Of a stretch of DNA of 34,157 nucleotides, positions 1,739-32,825 are shown piece after piece (the stretch's first letter is position 1; each line of letters opens with the position of its first letter). The notes under the pieces are model-generated. The model searched no databases and was not told the DNA's origin. It saw only the letters and a program-made list of their open reading frames with translations. Made by a program: the position numbers and the translations under genes. Origin of the DNA: Lachnospiraceae bacterium (lineage in GTDB: Bacteria > Bacillota > Clostridia > Lachnospirales > Lachnospiraceae); the NCBI GenBank assembly GCA_020860645.1, contig JAJBTX010000015.1, positions 1-34,157 on the forward strand, given 5' to 3'.

Positions 1739-3424
1739 GTGGACAGCCAGAAGGCCGAAAATGAGCTGAACCTGGCGCTCGACGTGACCGGGCAGGAGCG
1801 GGAGCGCGCGCTTGGCTTAAGCGAGGGTTACGACCCGGAGGAGCAGACTTGGGAGCTGATCGTGAAATATTCCGGGAGTGCAAAGCGGCTGCGTGAGCTG
1901 GCGGAGCAGACGACGGAGCTTTCCGGCGGCTACGCGGTGCTGGTCGTGCGCGCGTCGAAACTGACCGCGCTGGAGGAACTGCCGGAGGTCGAATACATTG
2001 AGAAACCGCGGCGACTGTACTTCGCGCAGACGGAGGGGAAGCGGGCTTCCTGTATGAGTGCCGCGCAGCGCGCGCCGCTGAACCTCACCGGGCGGGGCGT
2101 GATTGTCGCCGTACTGGACTCCGGCGTCGACTGCCGTCATCCGGAATTTCGGAGGGCGGACGGGACGAGCCGGCTCCTGGCGCTCTGGGATCAGACGGGC
2201 GAGGGACCGCCGCCGGAGGGATTCCATATAGGAACTGAATATACGCGGGAGGAGCTGAACGAGGCGCTGCGGACGGGCGCGCCGCTTCCCGGCGACGCAA
2301 GCGGCCACGGTACCGGCGTACTCTCGATCGCTGCCGGAAATCAGGGCGTGGCCTGCGAGAGCGAGCTGCTGGTCGTGAAGCTGGGGACCGCGCGTGAGAA
2401 TGGCTTTCCACGGACGACAGAGCTGATGCAGGGCGTGGAGTATACGCTGCGCAGGGCGCGGGAGTACGGGCTGCCTTTGGCCGTGAACCTGAGCTTTGGC
2501 AATTCCTACGGTTCGCACACAGGACAGAGTCTTCTCGAAACCTGGCTGAATGCGGCGGGCAGGCAGGGCAGGACGGTGATCTGCGCGGGGAGTGGAAATG
2601 AGGGCGCGCGCGCCGGGCACGCGGCGGGAAATCTGCGGGATGCGAAAGAACAGAGAGTGGAAATTTCCATTGCGGACTACGAACCGTCGCTGAATCTGCA
2701 GATCTGGAAGAATTATGCGGACCGTCTCGATATTTATCTCGTGCACCCGCGGGGGCAGACGGCGGGGCCGCTGCATGAGAGTCCTCCGGCGCAGCGGTAT
2801 CTTCTGGGAGAGACGGAGCTCTTGATTTACTATGGAGAACCGCGCCCATACAGCGTGGAACAGGAAATTTTCGTGGAATGGATTGCGAAGGGAAGCTATA
2901 TCGACGCCGGGATCTGGAGTCTGCGTCTCGTCCCGCGAAAGATTGTGGATGGGAACTGGCAGATGTGGCTGCCGTCCGGCGAGGCAGTCGGGAGCGCGAC
3001 GCGATTCCTCGCGCCCACACCGGAAAATACGCTCACGATTCCTTCGACGGCTTCAGGCCTCATCACGGTCGGAGCCTACGACGACCGGACGGACGCGATC
3101 GCTGATTTTTCCGGCAGAGGAATGGCAGGCAGCGGCCTGCAGAAACCGGATCTGGTCGCACCGGGCGTGGAGATCACAGCAGCCGCGCCGGGCGGCACAT
3201 ACCAGAGCCATTCCGGAACCTCGTTCGCAACGCCTTTTGTTACCGGGGCAGCGGCGCTTCTCATGCAATATGGCGTCGTGGATGGTCGCGACGCGTTTCT
3301 CTACGGGGAAAAGGTGAAAGCGTATCTGAGGCGCGGCGCCCGTCCGCTGCCTGCTTTTTCTGATTATCCGAATACAGCGGCGGGCTATGGAAAACTGTGC
3401 GTGGAGGACAGTCTGGATCTATGA
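1739..3424 (+). CDS. S8 (subtilisin-family) serine peptidase, Csp-like
   Basis: The 561-residue protein has an intact subtilisin triad: Asp127 in AVLDSGVD, His190 in SGHGTGV and Ser495 in GTSFATP. About 115 N-terminal residues before the catalytic domain match a short propeptide. The long insert between the His and Ser blocks is typical of clostridial Csp germination proteases and related S8 proteins. No signal peptide is visible, which fits Csp-like proteins deposited in the spore. The start is GTG at 1739, with GGAGGAG 6 nt upstream; the ATG at 1734 is out of frame. It follows a SASP gene, so a spore role is plausible, but Lachnospiraceae encode several S8 paralogues and a vegetative role is not excluded. 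The 3' end overlaps the convergent lipoprotein gene by 6 bp. Confidence 0.85.
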   Translation: MDSQKAENELNLALDVTGQERERALGLSEGYDPEEQTWELIVKYSGSAKRLRELAEQTTELSGGYAVLVVRASKLTALEELPEVEYIEKPRRLYFAQTEGKRASCMSAAQRAPLNLTGRGVIVAVLDSGVDCRHPEFRRADGTSRLLALWDQTGEGPPPEGFHIGTEYTREELNEALRTGAPLPGDASGHGTGVLSIAAGNQGVACESELLVVKLGTARENGFPRTTELMQGVEYTLRRAREYGLPLAVNLSFGNSYGSHTGQSLLETWLNAAGRQGRTVICAGSGNEGARAGHAAGNLRDAKEQRVEISIADYEPSLNLQIWKNYADRLDIYLVHPRGQTAGPLHESPPAQRYLLGETELLIYYGEPRPYSVEQEIFVEWIAKGSYIDAGIWSLRLVPRKIVDGNWQMWLPSGEAVGSATRFLAPTPENTLTIPSTASGLITVGAYDDRTDAIADFSGRGMAGSGLQKPDLVAPGVEITAAAPGGTYQSHSGTSFATPFVTGAAALLMQYGVVDGRDAFLYGEKVKAYLRRGARPLPAFSDYPNTAAGYGKLCVEDSLDL

Positions 3425-4426
3425 GAGAGTGATGGTGATCGTGACGACGGCGTAGTCGGCAACCCCATATTCCACGCCCACCGCGATCTGCCCGGACAGA
3501 TGCAGTTCCTGCATCGCGTCCGACACGGCGCCAAGAACGAGATTCATTTTGTCCTCCGCCTGTTCCGCGGTGGCGTCACAGACGATCTGGAACTGATAGG
3601 TTCCGCCGGAGAGATAAGCCTGAACGGCGGAAGGAATCTCCTCATCGGAAGAGACGAAGCAGTACGGTTCCTCCAGATAAGGCTCGATGCTTAAGAGACG
3701 ATTGCTCTCTAAATAGCGTGTGTCGGAGCAGACATGTCGGTCCTCCGGCCCCTCAGCGAAATGCGTATCCTCGATGGAACTGTCCGGCACGAGAAAATAG
3801 TCGTAGATAATATTGGAGCCGTCTGTGACGAGCTCGTCGTTTACGAGCGGGTCGTCCCAGGTGACATCCACATTGAACCAGGCGCTGTCCACGCGGACCT
3901 GGTTCCAGGCGTGGGACAATACGGAAGTTCCGTCGTTGGCGCTTCCATAGACCATGAGACTCTCGATCCCGACCTGCTCACACAGGTAATTGAAGGCTCT
4001 TGCGTAGCCCTCGCAGACTGCGGAATGCAGAAGCAGCGCGCCCTCGGCGGTGTAAGCTGTCTCCGGCAGGGTGTCCGCGTAGAGATTTTCATAGTCGTAG
4101 TCCACGTTATACACGAGATAGTCGTGAATCGCCTTGACTGTCTCGTATTCGGACATGTCGGACGAGAGAATGGATGCGGCGATGGTCTCCATCTCGGGCG
4201 AGGACTCTTCGGAGTCCTCCGGGGCTGTTTCCATACTTTCTGGTTCCGGTTCCTCGACGGACGCTTCTGCGTCCTCTGACTCCGTCTGGTCAGAAACCCT
4301 TCGTTCCTGCGTCTCCTCTGTCTGCGTGTCGTTTCCCAGCATGCGCTGCACATATTCGGTAATGTCTGAAAGTCCGCAGCCGGTCAGCAGCAGGGCTGCG
4401 GCGAGTAAAATCATTAATCTCTTCAT
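3419..4426 (-). CDS. Transglutaminase-like domain lipoprotein
   Basis: The ORF-track version starts at a TTG at 4483. Beginning at the ATG at 4424-4426 gives a proper lipoprotein signal, MKRLM followed by a hydrophobic run and the lipobox LLTGC (Cys17), so 4426 is taken as the start; its ribosome binding site is weak. An acidic, Ser/Glu-rich linker covers about residues 40-80. A transglutaminase-like fold follows with Cys138 (AVCEGYA), His172 (SHAWNQV) and Asp187 (VDVTWDD), the order of a papain-like triad. The protein should be anchored to the outer face of the membrane. Its substrate cannot be read from sequence; related domains act as peptidases or in cell-wall remodelling. It is convergent with the S8 protease and divergent from ridA. 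Confidence 0.82.
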   Translation of the reverse strand: MKRLMILLAAALLLTGCGLSDITEYVQRMLGNDTQTEETQERRVSDQTESEDAEASVEEPEPESMETAPEDSEESSPEMETIAASILSSDMSEYETVKAIHDYLVYNVDYDYENLYADTLPETAYTAEGALLLHSAVCEGYARAFNYLCEQVGIESLMVYGSANDGTSVLSHAWNQVRVDSAWFNVDVTWDDPLVNDELVTDGSNIIYDYFLVPDSSIEDTHFAEGPEDRHVCSDTRYLESNRLLSIEPYLEEPYCFVSSDEEIPSAVQAYLSGGTYQFQIVCDATAEQAEDKMNLVLGAVSDAMQELHLSGQIAVGVEYGVADYAVVTITITLS

Positions 4427-4455
4427 ATCAACAGTATAAGGAAGAAAAGCATTTC

Positions 4456-4474
4456 CCGCAAGGAAAACTTGCGG
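4456..4474. repeat. 7-bp inverted repeat in the lipoprotein/ridA divergent region
   Basis: CCGCAAG (4456-4462) and CTTGCGG (4468-4474) form a perfect 7-bp stem with a 5-nt loop. It would lie in the 5' untranslated leader of the minus-strand lipoprotein gene, and its right arm overlaps the candidate -35 of ridA. It could be an operator or a leader hairpin. Confidence 0.45.
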
Positions 4475-4497
4475 AACTTTCAAAGCTGCGGTATCAT
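4469..4497 (+). promoter_or_regulatory. Candidate sigma-A promoter for ridA
   Basis: TTGCGG (4469-4474), a 17-nt spacer and TATCAT (4492-4497). The -10 is good and the -35 is weak, and no better candidate was seen before ridA. Confidence 0.4.
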
Positions 4498-29004: not shown

Positions 29005-29095
29005 TGAGGTGTTTTACTGACATGCAGGCATTATATGAATGATGCACGCGATTCAGGGAATATCGCGTCGGCATGAAAGAGGGAGTCTGGCCAGG

Positions 29096-30037
29096 ATGAA
29101 AAATTATTGTTTTGGAATCGATGTCGGCGGCACGAGCGTGAAGATGGGATTTTTCCGGACGGACGGCGAGCTGCTGGAGAAGTGGGAGATTCCGACGAGG
29201 ACAGAGAATGGGGGAGACGCGATTCTGCCGGATATCGCGGCCTCCGCGCTTGCGAAGCTTGATGCGAGCGGTATAGAGAAGTCCGAGGTCGTCGGCATGG
29301 GAATCGGTATCCCGGGTCCCATCAATGCGGCGGGCGTCGTGCCGCACACGGCGAATCTGGGCTGGGGTTATAAGGAAGTGACGCGGGAGCTTACGGAACT
29401 CACCGGTATCCCCTGCAAAGGCGGAAACGACGCCAACGTGGCTGCGCTCGGCGAGATGTGGAAGGGCGCGGCTGCCGGACATCGAAGCGGCGTGATGGTG
29501 ACGCTCGGCACCGGCGTGGGCGGCGGTATTATCGTCGAAGGAAAGATTCTGGCGGGCGCGAACGGCGCGGGCGGTGAGATCGGCCATATCCATGTGGACG
29601 ACCGCATTCCCGGCGTCTGCGGCTGTGGAAATCATGGCTGCCTCGAACAGGTGGCCTCGGCCAACGGTATCGTAAAGCTGGCCCGTTGGATGGCGCAGGA
29701 GCGCGGGGAAATCAGCACCTCTCTTAACATGGAGAATCTGAACAGCAAGCTTCTCTGGGACGCTGTGAAGGCCGGGGATGCCTTTGCCTGCGAGGTCGCG
29801 GAGCGCTTCGGGTACTATCTGGGGCTTGCACTCGCGAACGTCGCCGCAACCGTCGATCCGGAGGTCTTCATTATCGGCGGCGGCATGTCCAGGGCAGGGG
29901 AGATCATTCTTGATTACATACAGAAATATTATGTGCAGTATACCTTCAAGGCCTGCCGGGACGCGAGGTTTGTCCTTGCGAAGCTCGGAAACGACGCGGG
30001 CATCTATGGCTCGGCGAAGCTGGTGATTGAAGGCTAG
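29096..30037 (+). CDS. glcK: ROK-family glucokinase
   Basis: The 313-residue protein starts at the ATG at 29096, which begins MKNYCFGIDVGGT with a GAGGGAG site upstream. It has the ATP-binding DVGGTSVK (9-16), the catalytic aspartate in GNDAN (Asp112), and the ROK zinc site of His164 with CGCGNHGC (Cys175, 177, 182). It phosphorylates glucose to glucose-6-phosphate in the cytosol. Neighbouring hprK suggests a sugar-sensing group. A BlaI-like fragment begins right at its stop codon. Confidence 0.94.
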   Translation: MKNYCFGIDVGGTSVKMGFFRTDGELLEKWEIPTRTENGGDAILPDIAASALAKLDASGIEKSEVVGMGIGIPGPINAAGVVPHTANLGWGYKEVTRELTELTGIPCKGGNDANVAALGEMWKGAAAGHRSGVMVTLGTGVGGGIIVEGKILAGANGAGGEIGHIHVDDRIPGVCGCGNHGCLEQVASANGIVKLARWMAQERGEISTSLNMENLNSKLLWDAVKAGDAFACEVAERFGYYLGLALANVAATVDPEVFIIGGGMSRAGEIILDYIQKYYVQYTFKACRDARFVLAKLGNDAGIYGSAKLVIEG

Positions 30038-30038
30038 T

Positions 30039-30218
30039 GTGCAACTGTACCGTGCGCTGATTTCCCGGGAAGAGGTGCAGGCCGCTGAGACGGACGAGCT
30101 GATCGACAGGATTTATGACGGCTCCGTGGACAAACTGTTCGCGGCGCTGCTCGGCAGGAAGAAGCTCTCCTCGGAGCAGATCGAGCGCCTGAAGCAGCTG
30201 GTCGACGTGCTGGAATAA
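30039..30218 (+). pseudogene. Headless BlaI/MecI-family repressor fragment
   Basis: The reading frame gives about 59 residues from a GTG at 30039. They match only the C-terminal dimerisation half of BlaI/MecI regulators: LYRALISREEV, then a LIDRIYDGSVDKLFAALL helix and LSSEQIERLKQLVD. The DNA-binding winged helix that should precede it is absent, and the frame begins directly after the glcK stop. No good ribosome binding site is seen. It looks like the tail of a deleted regulator gene. A short expressed dimerisation peptide is a less likely alternative. Confidence 0.65.
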
Positions 30219-30228
30219 GGAGGCGTCT

Positions 30229-31734
30229 ATGAGTTTACTGCGAATGAGCCTCAAGGGGGCGGTATTAATTCTGGTGATTCTGGTTCTGGCACTGTTCGCC
30301 ACGTCGGCGGAAAAACAGGAGGAGCAGGCGGAGACGATGGCGATCGACTCCGGGCTGGAGCTTCGCGTCGACTTGAATGGGGATGGCGCGTCAATGGCTT
30401 CAATGGAACAGGGAACAGAGTCAGATGACGCTGAAAACAGTCTTTCGGCTGGCTCGCCGATCACAGTGGCAGGTTTAGAGGTTTCTATCAGGCATTCGGA
30501 AACGGACAGCACGTGGCAGGTCGTTGCCGAAGACGACGAGATGGGGCAGGAAACAAAGATCATGGAACTTGGCGACGATATCGATATCGCGCTGGAGGAT
30601 ATTGGAAAACTGATGGGGATGCCGGCATTCATGGTCCAGTATACCTATGCCGGCGGTTACTGTACCGATCGCCATTATTTCGGGATCTGGAACAGCGAAT
30701 GTGTGAATCTCGGGTACGGCGGCGGATATGAGAACTCGGCGGATTATATTCTGGATGTAGACGGCGACGGCGTCACAGAGCTGATCTGCAATTCCCTGTA
30801 CAGCGACGGAGGATGCTCTGCCACGATTTATCGGCGGGATGGAGAACGGGTCTTGTATGGCTCCTGTGGCGATCTGCGTACAGGAGAGTCGGATGCCTCA
30901 CTCAGCTCTTCCCATGCCGCATGGACTTCGTGGTATCTTCCGAGGGAAAATGTGGTGGTAGTTACCTACGAGAAAGATGGGATTTCTCAGACGGAAAAAT
31001 GTGAGATCGACATAAGCCGGATTACGATGTATGAGTATGTACATAACTATGGTGTGGAAGAGCTGCAAAACAGCGATCAGGCTTTCGGGAAGACGCTCTG
31101 GAATATTTATCTGTCCGGCGTCCTCACTGACGGGACGCAGTTAGCGTATATCAATATGGAAGCGGCCGAGGCCAGCAGTTTCGCGATCGCTGACGTGGAC
31201 GGCGACGGGATGGAGGAGCTGCTGCTCGACTGGGAGGACAGCACCATGGCCGGGATGGAGGAGCTCATCTTCGGTTATGACGGGGATGAGGTCTATGTGG
31301 AATTTGCGGCGTTCCCATCGCTGCGGATCTACGACAACGGCGTTATTGAGGCGGACTGGTCGCACAATCAGGGATTTTCGGGACGGTTCTGGCCTTACCA
31401 TGTCTACCTGTATGATGCGGAGACTGACGCGTATCAGTTCTCGTGCGGCGTGGAGGCCTGGGACTGGGAGGTAAGCCCGGAAAATGGGCTGGGGACATTT
31501 CCGGAGGACGTTGACATGGACGGAGACGGTCTCGTTTACTGCATCACCACGGACGAAGTCGATCCCTATGCCGATATCACATGGATCGATGGCGGCGCGT
31601 ATGAAGGCTGGCACGACTCCTGTGTCGGCGATGCGAAGGAGCTCAGCTTTTCCTGGCAGCAGCTGACGGAGGAGAATATTGCCGCACTGGGATATCCGAA
31701 GCCCGATGTGGAGATCGCGGAACCGGCGGGGTGA
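30229..31734 (+). CDS. Exported protein with VCBS/FG-GAP-like calcium loops
   Basis: The 501-residue protein follows AAGGAGG with good spacing. A single hydrophobic N-terminal segment (about 8-27) acts as a signal or anchor, followed by a Glu/Gln-rich stretch. The body has acidic DxDxDG loops (DVDGDGVTEL, DVDGDGMEEL, DVDMDGDGL), as in FG-GAP/VCBS beta-propeller or dockerin-like calcium sites. It is rich in aromatic and acidic residues and has few lysines. No catalytic motif is recognised. The first 20 residues, MSLLRMSLKGAVLILVILVL, resemble the start of BlaR1/M56 sensor proteins as I know them from Lachnospiraceae. With the BlaI fragment just upstream, a fusion arising by deletion is possible. 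Confidence 0.6.
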   Translation: MSLLRMSLKGAVLILVILVLALFATSAEKQEEQAETMAIDSGLELRVDLNGDGASMASMEQGTESDDAENSLSAGSPITVAGLEVSIRHSETDSTWQVVAEDDEMGQETKIMELGDDIDIALEDIGKLMGMPAFMVQYTYAGGYCTDRHYFGIWNSECVNLGYGGGYENSADYILDVDGDGVTELICNSLYSDGGCSATIYRRDGERVLYGSCGDLRTGESDASLSSSHAAWTSWYLPRENVVVVTYEKDGISQTEKCEIDISRITMYEYVHNYGVEELQNSDQAFGKTLWNIYLSGVLTDGTQLAYINMEAAEASSFAIADVDGDGMEELLLDWEDSTMAGMEELIFGYDGDEVYVEFAAFPSLRIYDNGVIEADWSHNQGFSGRFWPYHVYLYDAETDAYQFSCGVEAWDWEVSPENGLGTFPEDVDMDGDGLVYCITTDEVDPYADITWIDGGAYEGWHDSCVGDAKELSFSWQQLTEENIAALGYPKPDVEIAEPAG

Positions 31735-31874
31735 TGGCCTTTTGCGAGTTTCTTTTTGACCGGCTCTGTGAGTCTCCCGGCAAGACCCTTAGCGAGACCT
31801 TCGCGTTCAGGAAAGTGTAGCTCACATAGTTCGAATTGTCGAAATATTGTAATTGAAATGGAAGAGGTACGAAG
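31735..31874. other. Intergenic region with possible minus-strand remnant
   Basis: This 140-bp region has no intact gene. The minus strand reads REGLAKGLAG and KKKLAKG in one frame, like the repetitive tail of Rpn/PD-(D/E)XK family proteins, but no start or full domain exists. A short perfect palindrome, TTCGA-ATTG-TCGAA, lies near 31830 upstream of the hydrolase gene and may be an operator. Confidence 0.3.
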
Positions 31875-32423
31875 ATGAAGATTGCAGTTATATTTCCGGG
31901 CGTCGGTTATCATGTAGATAAGCCGTTGCTCTATCACAGCAAAAAGATCGCCGCCGCGCAGGGCTACGAGCTCAAGGACGTGCCTTATGGCGATTTTCCG
32001 TCCGGCGTCCGGGGCGACAGGGAGAAAATGAACGCCTGTTTTCTCACAGCGATCGAACAGGCGGAGGATATCCTGAAAGACGTTGATTTCTCGCGGTACG
32101 AGGAGATTCTCTTCCTGTCGAAGAGCATCGGCACGGCGATTGCCTCGGCATATGGAAGCAGGCATAAGCTGCGGACGCGAAACGTCTATTTCACACCGGT
32201 CGGGGAGTCCTTTCCCTTCATGGAGCAGCCGGGCATCGTGTTTCACGGAACTGCCGACAACTGGGTCGACACGGAGCTTATCCGGGCGGAGTGTGAAAAA
32301 CGAGGGCTGCCGCTTTACATTATTGAGGACGCCAATCATTCCCTGGAGACCGGAGACTGGGAGCAGGATCTGCAGAATTTGCAGAGGATTATGGCGGAGG
32401 TAGAACGGTATTTGCGGTCATAA
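31875..32423 (+). CDS. Small alpha/beta hydrolase
   Basis: The 182-residue protein is near the minimum for the alpha/beta-hydrolase fold. The nucleophile elbow reads LSKSIGT, a divergent form of GxSxG in which the first glycine is replaced. The acidic residue is in FHGTADNWVD and the catalytic histidine in ANHSLE, both in the right order. No signal peptide or lid insertion is seen, so it should be cytosolic; the substrate is unknown. Start ATG with an AAGAGG-type site. Confidence 0.75.
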   Translation: MKIAVIFPGVGYHVDKPLLYHSKKIAAAQGYELKDVPYGDFPSGVRGDREKMNACFLTAIEQAEDILKDVDFSRYEEILFLSKSIGTAIASAYGSRHKLRTRNVYFTPVGESFPFMEQPGIVFHGTADNWVDTELIRAECEKRGLPLYIIEDANHSLETGDWEQDLQNLQRIMAEVERYLRS

Positions 32424-32712: not shown

Positions 32713-32814
32713 GAAGAGTCCTGTGACGGTTCCGACAGGACGGTAAAATAAAAGTGACCGGGTGAAGAGTCCTGTGACGGTTCCGACAGGACGGTAAAAT
32801 AAAAGTGACCGAGT
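32713..32814 (+). ncRNA. Putative type III antitoxin RNA, two 51-nt tandem repeats
   Basis: Two 51-bp units (32713-32763 and 32764-32814) are identical except for one base near the 3' end. Each has a 7-bp stem, GTCCTGT/ACAGGAC, with a 10-nt loop containing CGGT. A downstream ACCG could pair with that loop as an H-type pseudoknot. The array sits between a strong promoter and a terminator-like hairpin directly upstream of a ToxN-superfamily-like gene, which is the layout of ToxI/TenpI/CptI antitoxin RNAs. Both units lie on the coding strand of the toxin. Confidence 0.7.
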
Positions 32815-32825
32815 GATGAGAAACG

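Follow-up and report, generated by a model that had tools for sequence, protein, structure and literature searches.

The closest described systems are the BlaI/BlaR1 and MecI/MecR1 pairs of S. aureus and B. licheniformis, in which BlaR1 and MecR1 normally degrade their own repressor by proteolysis upon ligand sensing by the outside domain (PMC7593790). Decay within this regulator family is documented in the class B and class C mec complexes of SCCmec, where mecR1 is truncated by IS1272 or IS431 and the mecR1-mecI pair is incomplete (PMC8772726). Here, a locus is described from a 34,157-nucleotide stretch of a Lachnospiraceae genome (assembly GCA_020860645.1, contig JAJBTX010000015.1; hereafter the window), in which a blaI-M56 pair has very probably been eroded by deletions after glcK, so that it is dead as a signalling system while its ectodomain is still coding. 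The likeness to the classical systems lies in the relative G011, where genes for PF03965 and PF05569 proteins are adjacent with the repressor first; the window differs in that the DNA-binding and peptidase parts are both gone and in that the ectodomain is not a class-D beta-lactamase-like penicillin sensor. The mec complexes represent the closest documented analogue, although insertion sequences truncate the sensor there, whereas the window shows mid-gene deletions, a retained ectodomain and no insertion sequence.

The BlaI remnant directly after glcK

The intact upstream neighbour glcK, a ROK-family gene (29039..30037, plus strand; PF00480, E 4.9e-63), is present in 17 of 17 genus genomes, and its TAG stop abuts BlaI debris without a gap. 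Positions 30041..30053 (plus strand) appear to be an out-of-frame relic of blaI codons 20-24 between two deletion junctions, and this copy has diverged from that of the relative G001, in which 14 nt, GCGACTGCACCGCG, are identical to codons 20-24 of G011 blaI before the sequence jumps to codon 66. Codons 66-119 plus the stop follow at 30054..30218 (plus strand), and 30054-30215 constitutes the coding part of the C-terminal half of a BlaI-type repressor, alone. This half matches Pfam PF03965 (Penicillinase_R) at profile positions 61-114 of 115 (E 1.4e-10; 42 bits against a cut-off of 22.6) and is 93% identical to residues 65-119 of G011 BlaI, a match that is not due to chance. The winged-helix DNA-binding part (profile positions 1-60) has no coding sequence at the locus, only the short out-of-frame relic. 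Among the BlaI matches in 17 genus genomes, C-terminal-only forms occur only in the window and G001, the others being nearly all full length. The fragment is a remnant and not a functional member of PF03965. A sequence-only reading of the window had described a BlaI C-terminal half lacking its DNA-binding domain and lying directly after glcK, and both points are borne out.

It is conceivable that the scrap is made as a protein and interferes with the genome's other BlaI by pairing with it in a dominant-negative fashion. The half that is retained is the dimerisation half in known BlaI proteins, and a GTG at 30039 follows GAAGG with 5-nt spacing, overlapping the glcK stop region. However, this possible start is absent from G001, and mixed dimers are doubtful because identity to the other BlaI is 35% in the C-terminal half; we regard such a role as highly improbable.

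Composition of the 501-residue reading frame

The adjacent gene, a 501-aa reading frame at 30229-31734, has a ribosome-binding site (GGAGG) just 5' of its ATG. Its residues 1-20 (30229..30288, plus strand) comprise the start and first transmembrane segment (TM1) of an M56 gene, since MSLLRMSLKGAVLILVILV aligns with the G011 M56 start and with 14 M56 N-termini from the bacterial family (MSLLQMSxSGAVMIL...), in agreement with the earlier suggestion that these 20 residues begin an M56-type sensor. Residues 21-501 (30289..31734, plus strand) comprise the end of TM4 and the whole ectodomain, joined in frame to the gene start through the loss of 308 codons; they are 92% identical to residues 319-797 of G011 M56, its last 479 residues. 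At the junction between residues 20 and 21, TM1 DNA ATTCTGGTGATTCTGGTTCTG is joined to TM4-end DNA GCRCTGTTCGCCACG. The 92% identity over 479 residues at the same locus shows that the frame descends from an M56 gene. The interval first singled out, 30039-30320, does hold the fragment and the gene start, but the gene itself runs to 31734.

No Pfam family matches the 501-aa protein above its cut-off, and FG-GAP_3 falls below its own (E 0.0028). Four DxDGDG/DLNGDG loops are located at residues 48, 176, 322 and 429. The PF05569 peptidase core with HEXXH, present in G011, has no match in the window frame. The protein contains one continuous hydrophobic stretch, preceded by two basic residues and followed by ATSA, and AlphaFold (five sequences) predicts a single helix, spanning residues 2-25, in a model that is weak elsewhere (overall mean pLDDT 49) and with which a PDB fold search gave no match at E<=0.001. 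The TM1/TM4 hybrid, with R5/K9, a hydrophobic core and then ATSA, looks like a signal anchor, and the protein is most likely exported or N-terminally anchored.

The BlaR1 label proposed for the sensor holds only in part. M56 origin is supported by the 92% identity to G011, but a beta-lactam BlaR1 was rejected, as neither the window frame nor its undeleted G011 counterpart contains a penicillin-binding domain. Comparison of the 501-aa C-terminal part with BlaR1 extracellular domains, proposed as a check, revealed no class-D beta-lactamase-like penicillin-sensor match in Pfam, NCBIfam or PDB sequences; no PDB entry at all was significantly similar in sequence to the window frame, and the NCBIfam BlaR1/MecR1 models match G011 M56 only in its peptidase part. 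It is probable that the sensor never was a BlaR1 for beta-lactams; the pair at this locus is of BlaI-M56 type and has a different ectodomain, which is acidic and contains DxDGDG loops. Automatic annotation would label the long frame a hypothetical exported protein and the short one a BlaI family regulator, and neither is able to do the job of its family.

The undeleted pair in a close relative

A protein search with the 501-aa sequence across 61 genomes returned one strong, nearly full-length match outside the window's own genome, in the sister species G011, with 91% identity over residues 10-501 inside an 803-codon open frame. The G011 M56 gene has about 809 codons and the zinc motif HEYIH (PF05569, E 7.6e-44), and the BlaI encoded beside it is 119 aa long and covers PF03965 positions 3-115. 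Gene order is as in the window: uvrC, hprK, glcK, about 900 bp, blaI, M56 and a hydrolase-like gene. Examination of the region after glcK in relatives, as the sequence-only reading had advised, thus revealed an intact-type pair, and the proposed loss of repressor head and peptidase core is matched by the full G011 pair at the same locus, compared with which the window has 308 codons fewer. The roughly 900 bp include a DUF3791 gene (PF12668, E 1.4e-16), and broken reading frames flank this gene (L012, about 3579-4480, reverse strand).

From ATG to stop, the M56 gene spans 2431 nt in G011 versus 1506 nt in the window, a difference of 924 nt, or exactly 308 codons, after correction for the additional G that G011 has in a G6 tract. 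This tract follows codon 9 (L012, contig C219, reverse strand, near 3171-3208) and is G5 in the window; it would break the ATG-initiated G011 frame unless a TTG start is used or the base is an assembly error. It may represent a sequencing error, a variable tract or a first decay step, and even the apparently intact G011 copy may be damaged.

Decay states in other relatives and history of the locus

G001 has the glcK-TAG-blaI junction in common with the window. Two additional in-frame deletions have reduced its M56 gene to a 129-aa relic; the words GGGGC and CGGAGGA are common to their breakpoints, as is typical of short-homology deletion. The M56 junctions differ between the window and G001. 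In G008, three pieces survive, in this order: 46 bp from the blaI promoter region (89%, E 2e-12); 40 bp of M56 TM2, the stretch that codes for the TM2 motif of G011 (92%, E 8e-12); and the flank beyond the locus on its downstream side. The label of operator for the G011 and G008 DNA is putative, drawn from position and from similarity between these two genomes, and a search of their blaI promoter region for a dyad gave nothing clear. G016 carries a 254-bp piece (90%) of the insert beside the DUF3791 gene and no more, and after glcK in G013 no remnant of insert or pair was found. No blaI or M56 match follows glcK in the available sequence of the 13 other genus members; for G003 and G009, the contig stops 1.2-1.6 kb past glcK. 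Short forms conserved everywhere, with no intact pair, were not the state seen among the relatives compared. The locus, an ordinary case of gene erosion caught partway and unusually well documented, shows how repressor/sensor-protease pairs disappear: the close relatives range from a pair that is almost complete, through two that have partly collapsed and a relic of 100 bp, to sites with nothing left.

All genomes compared are drafts, at least G011 and G001 being metagenome-derived, and assembly artefact or strain mixture might therefore be considered as a source of the junctions. However, the BlaI junction recurs in the independent assembly of G001, and the M56 junction preserves the reading frame and falls within unique sequence, where any shared words are very short, leaving very little probability for an artefact.

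Under the preferred explanation of stepwise erosion, a repressor/sensor blaI-M56 pair would have sat downstream of glcK in the ancestors of a small clade. The window lineage would then have lost the promoter/operator of the pair, the DNA-binding part of BlaI (codons 1-19 and 25-65) and the M56 protease core (308 codons). The BlaI head was probably removed in two bites, from the glcK end to codon 20 and from codon 24 to codon 66, because G001 keeps 14 nt of codons 20-24 and then jumps to codon 66; the order of these events is a tentative reconstruction. A deletion had been anticipated, and the loss itself stands, but a single event does not: several deletions at different times are indicated, since the loss of the BlaI head is common to G001 and the M56 junctions are not. 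The remaining coding product consists of one N-terminal hydrophobic helix and an intact acidic ectodomain, and any transcription of its gene most likely comes from hprK-glcK read-through. Signalling at the window locus is dead, and a BlaR1-type mechanism cannot run there, because no helix-turn-helix DNA-binding repressor, no protease and no operator are left.

Relationships along the locus are discordant. In uvrC, hprK and most of glcK, the window clusters with G011 (uvrC identity 96.7%, versus 92.0% to G001). The BlaI fragment and M56 start, by contrast, place it with G001, with which it shares both the deletion and the R5/K9 changes, and towards the end of glcK the signals are mixed. Simple descent fails, because the core genes are near those of G011 but the BlaI-head deletion is common to G001, and allele exchange between close species at the locus, with either genome as recipient, is the likeliest explanation.

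A paralogue within the window's genome was also considered as a source and rejected. Elsewhere in that genome, BlaI and M56 genes occur only as a separate, apparently intact adjacent pair (contig C117, 7501-8719; L001, L003), a different pair with 35% identity over the BlaI half. Adjacent pairs similar to it occur in G008, G013 and G016, and the corresponding M56 match lies within a frame of only 259 aa in G001 and at a contig end in G011. BlaI matches number 1-2 per genome in the window's genome, G001, G008, G011, G013 and G016, versus 3-12 in most other genus members, a contrast that suggests general loss of such pairs in the window's close relatives or gain in the others.

Coding status of the 501-residue protein

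Omega between the window and G011 is 0.17 (0.10-0.25) for the ectodomain and 0.09 (0.04-0.15) for the C-domain, values that include time before the deletion, while glcK gives 0.11 and hprK and uvrC give 0.03-0.04 for the same pair. No stop or indel relative to G011 was found in 479 codons. Over about 100 codons shared with G001, synonymous/nonsynonymous singleton changes, few in all, number 5/2 in the window, 13/0 in G011 and 6/5 in G001. A promoter and terminator scan around the frame detected nothing above chance.

These data can be read in two ways. The deletion between transmembrane segments may have yielded a working product, a selected signal-anchored or secreted ligand-binding protein, with the BlaI scrap as junk carrying its ribosome-binding site; this account refines the erosion hypothesis and is not an alternative origin. 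The frame is kept across a 924-nt deletion, C-domain omega is 0.09, GGAGG precedes the ATG, and the N-terminus carries R5/K9 where other M56 proteins have Q5 and a neutral residue 9, which makes the n-region positive. Related C-domains also stand alone in lipoprotein-like proteins (L014 2464-3342, L015 4723-5658 and L053 5833-6672; about 37-43% identity, roughly over residues 280-490), which, judging by their signal sequences, are exported without an M56 core as proposed for the window protein, but carry their own signal sequences and not a TM1/TM4 fusion; the L014 gene sits directly after a blaI-M56 pair. Yet R5/K9 are present in G001 too, whose relic has no transmembrane helix; the old promoter region is gone with no new one evident, most or all of the ectodomain is lost in G001 and G008, and the deletion may simply be recent. 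We place a selected product slightly short of an even chance.

Alternatively, both remnants may be unselected debris, to be lost as in G008. The decay series in G001 and G008, the loss of promoter/operator and divergence of the scrap's start codon region between the window and G001 all favour such an outcome, against which stand the lack of any inactivating change in 481 codons and the low omega; its probability likewise approaches, without reaching, one half. It is about even whether the protein is alive or debris: it may have been cut too recently for decay, or the ectodomain may still act by itself, in which case function would continue. On the best reading, the ectodomain of the collapsed pair survives, if expressed, by read-through from glcK, and the suggestion of a secreted protein under new control is plausible. 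Should the short form prove to be exported and retained, it would show how a sensor's outer portion can persist after its signalling machinery has gone. A stronger version, in which one deletion between transmembrane segments converted the signalling protease in a single step into an independent, exported protein that binds ligand, with R5/K9 suiting the inverted topology, seems unlikely; if true, it would represent a natural path by which a membrane sensor becomes a secreted protein.

Neighbouring features

The right flank in both the window and G011 is a hydrolase-like gene (31875..32423, plus strand), 96% identical in G011 and weakly similar to Abhydrolase_11, below the cut-off. Between it and the 501-aa frame, positions 31735-31830 on the minus strand hold a short C-terminal scrap resembling a PD-(D/E)XK transposase-family gene, which is full length in G001 (L006 2010-2861; PF12784, E 1.6e-8); the scrap is a second truncated gene beside the BlaI-M56 debris. 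Further downstream, 32713-32820 comprises a 51-bp tandem repeat of 2.1 copies with 96% matches.
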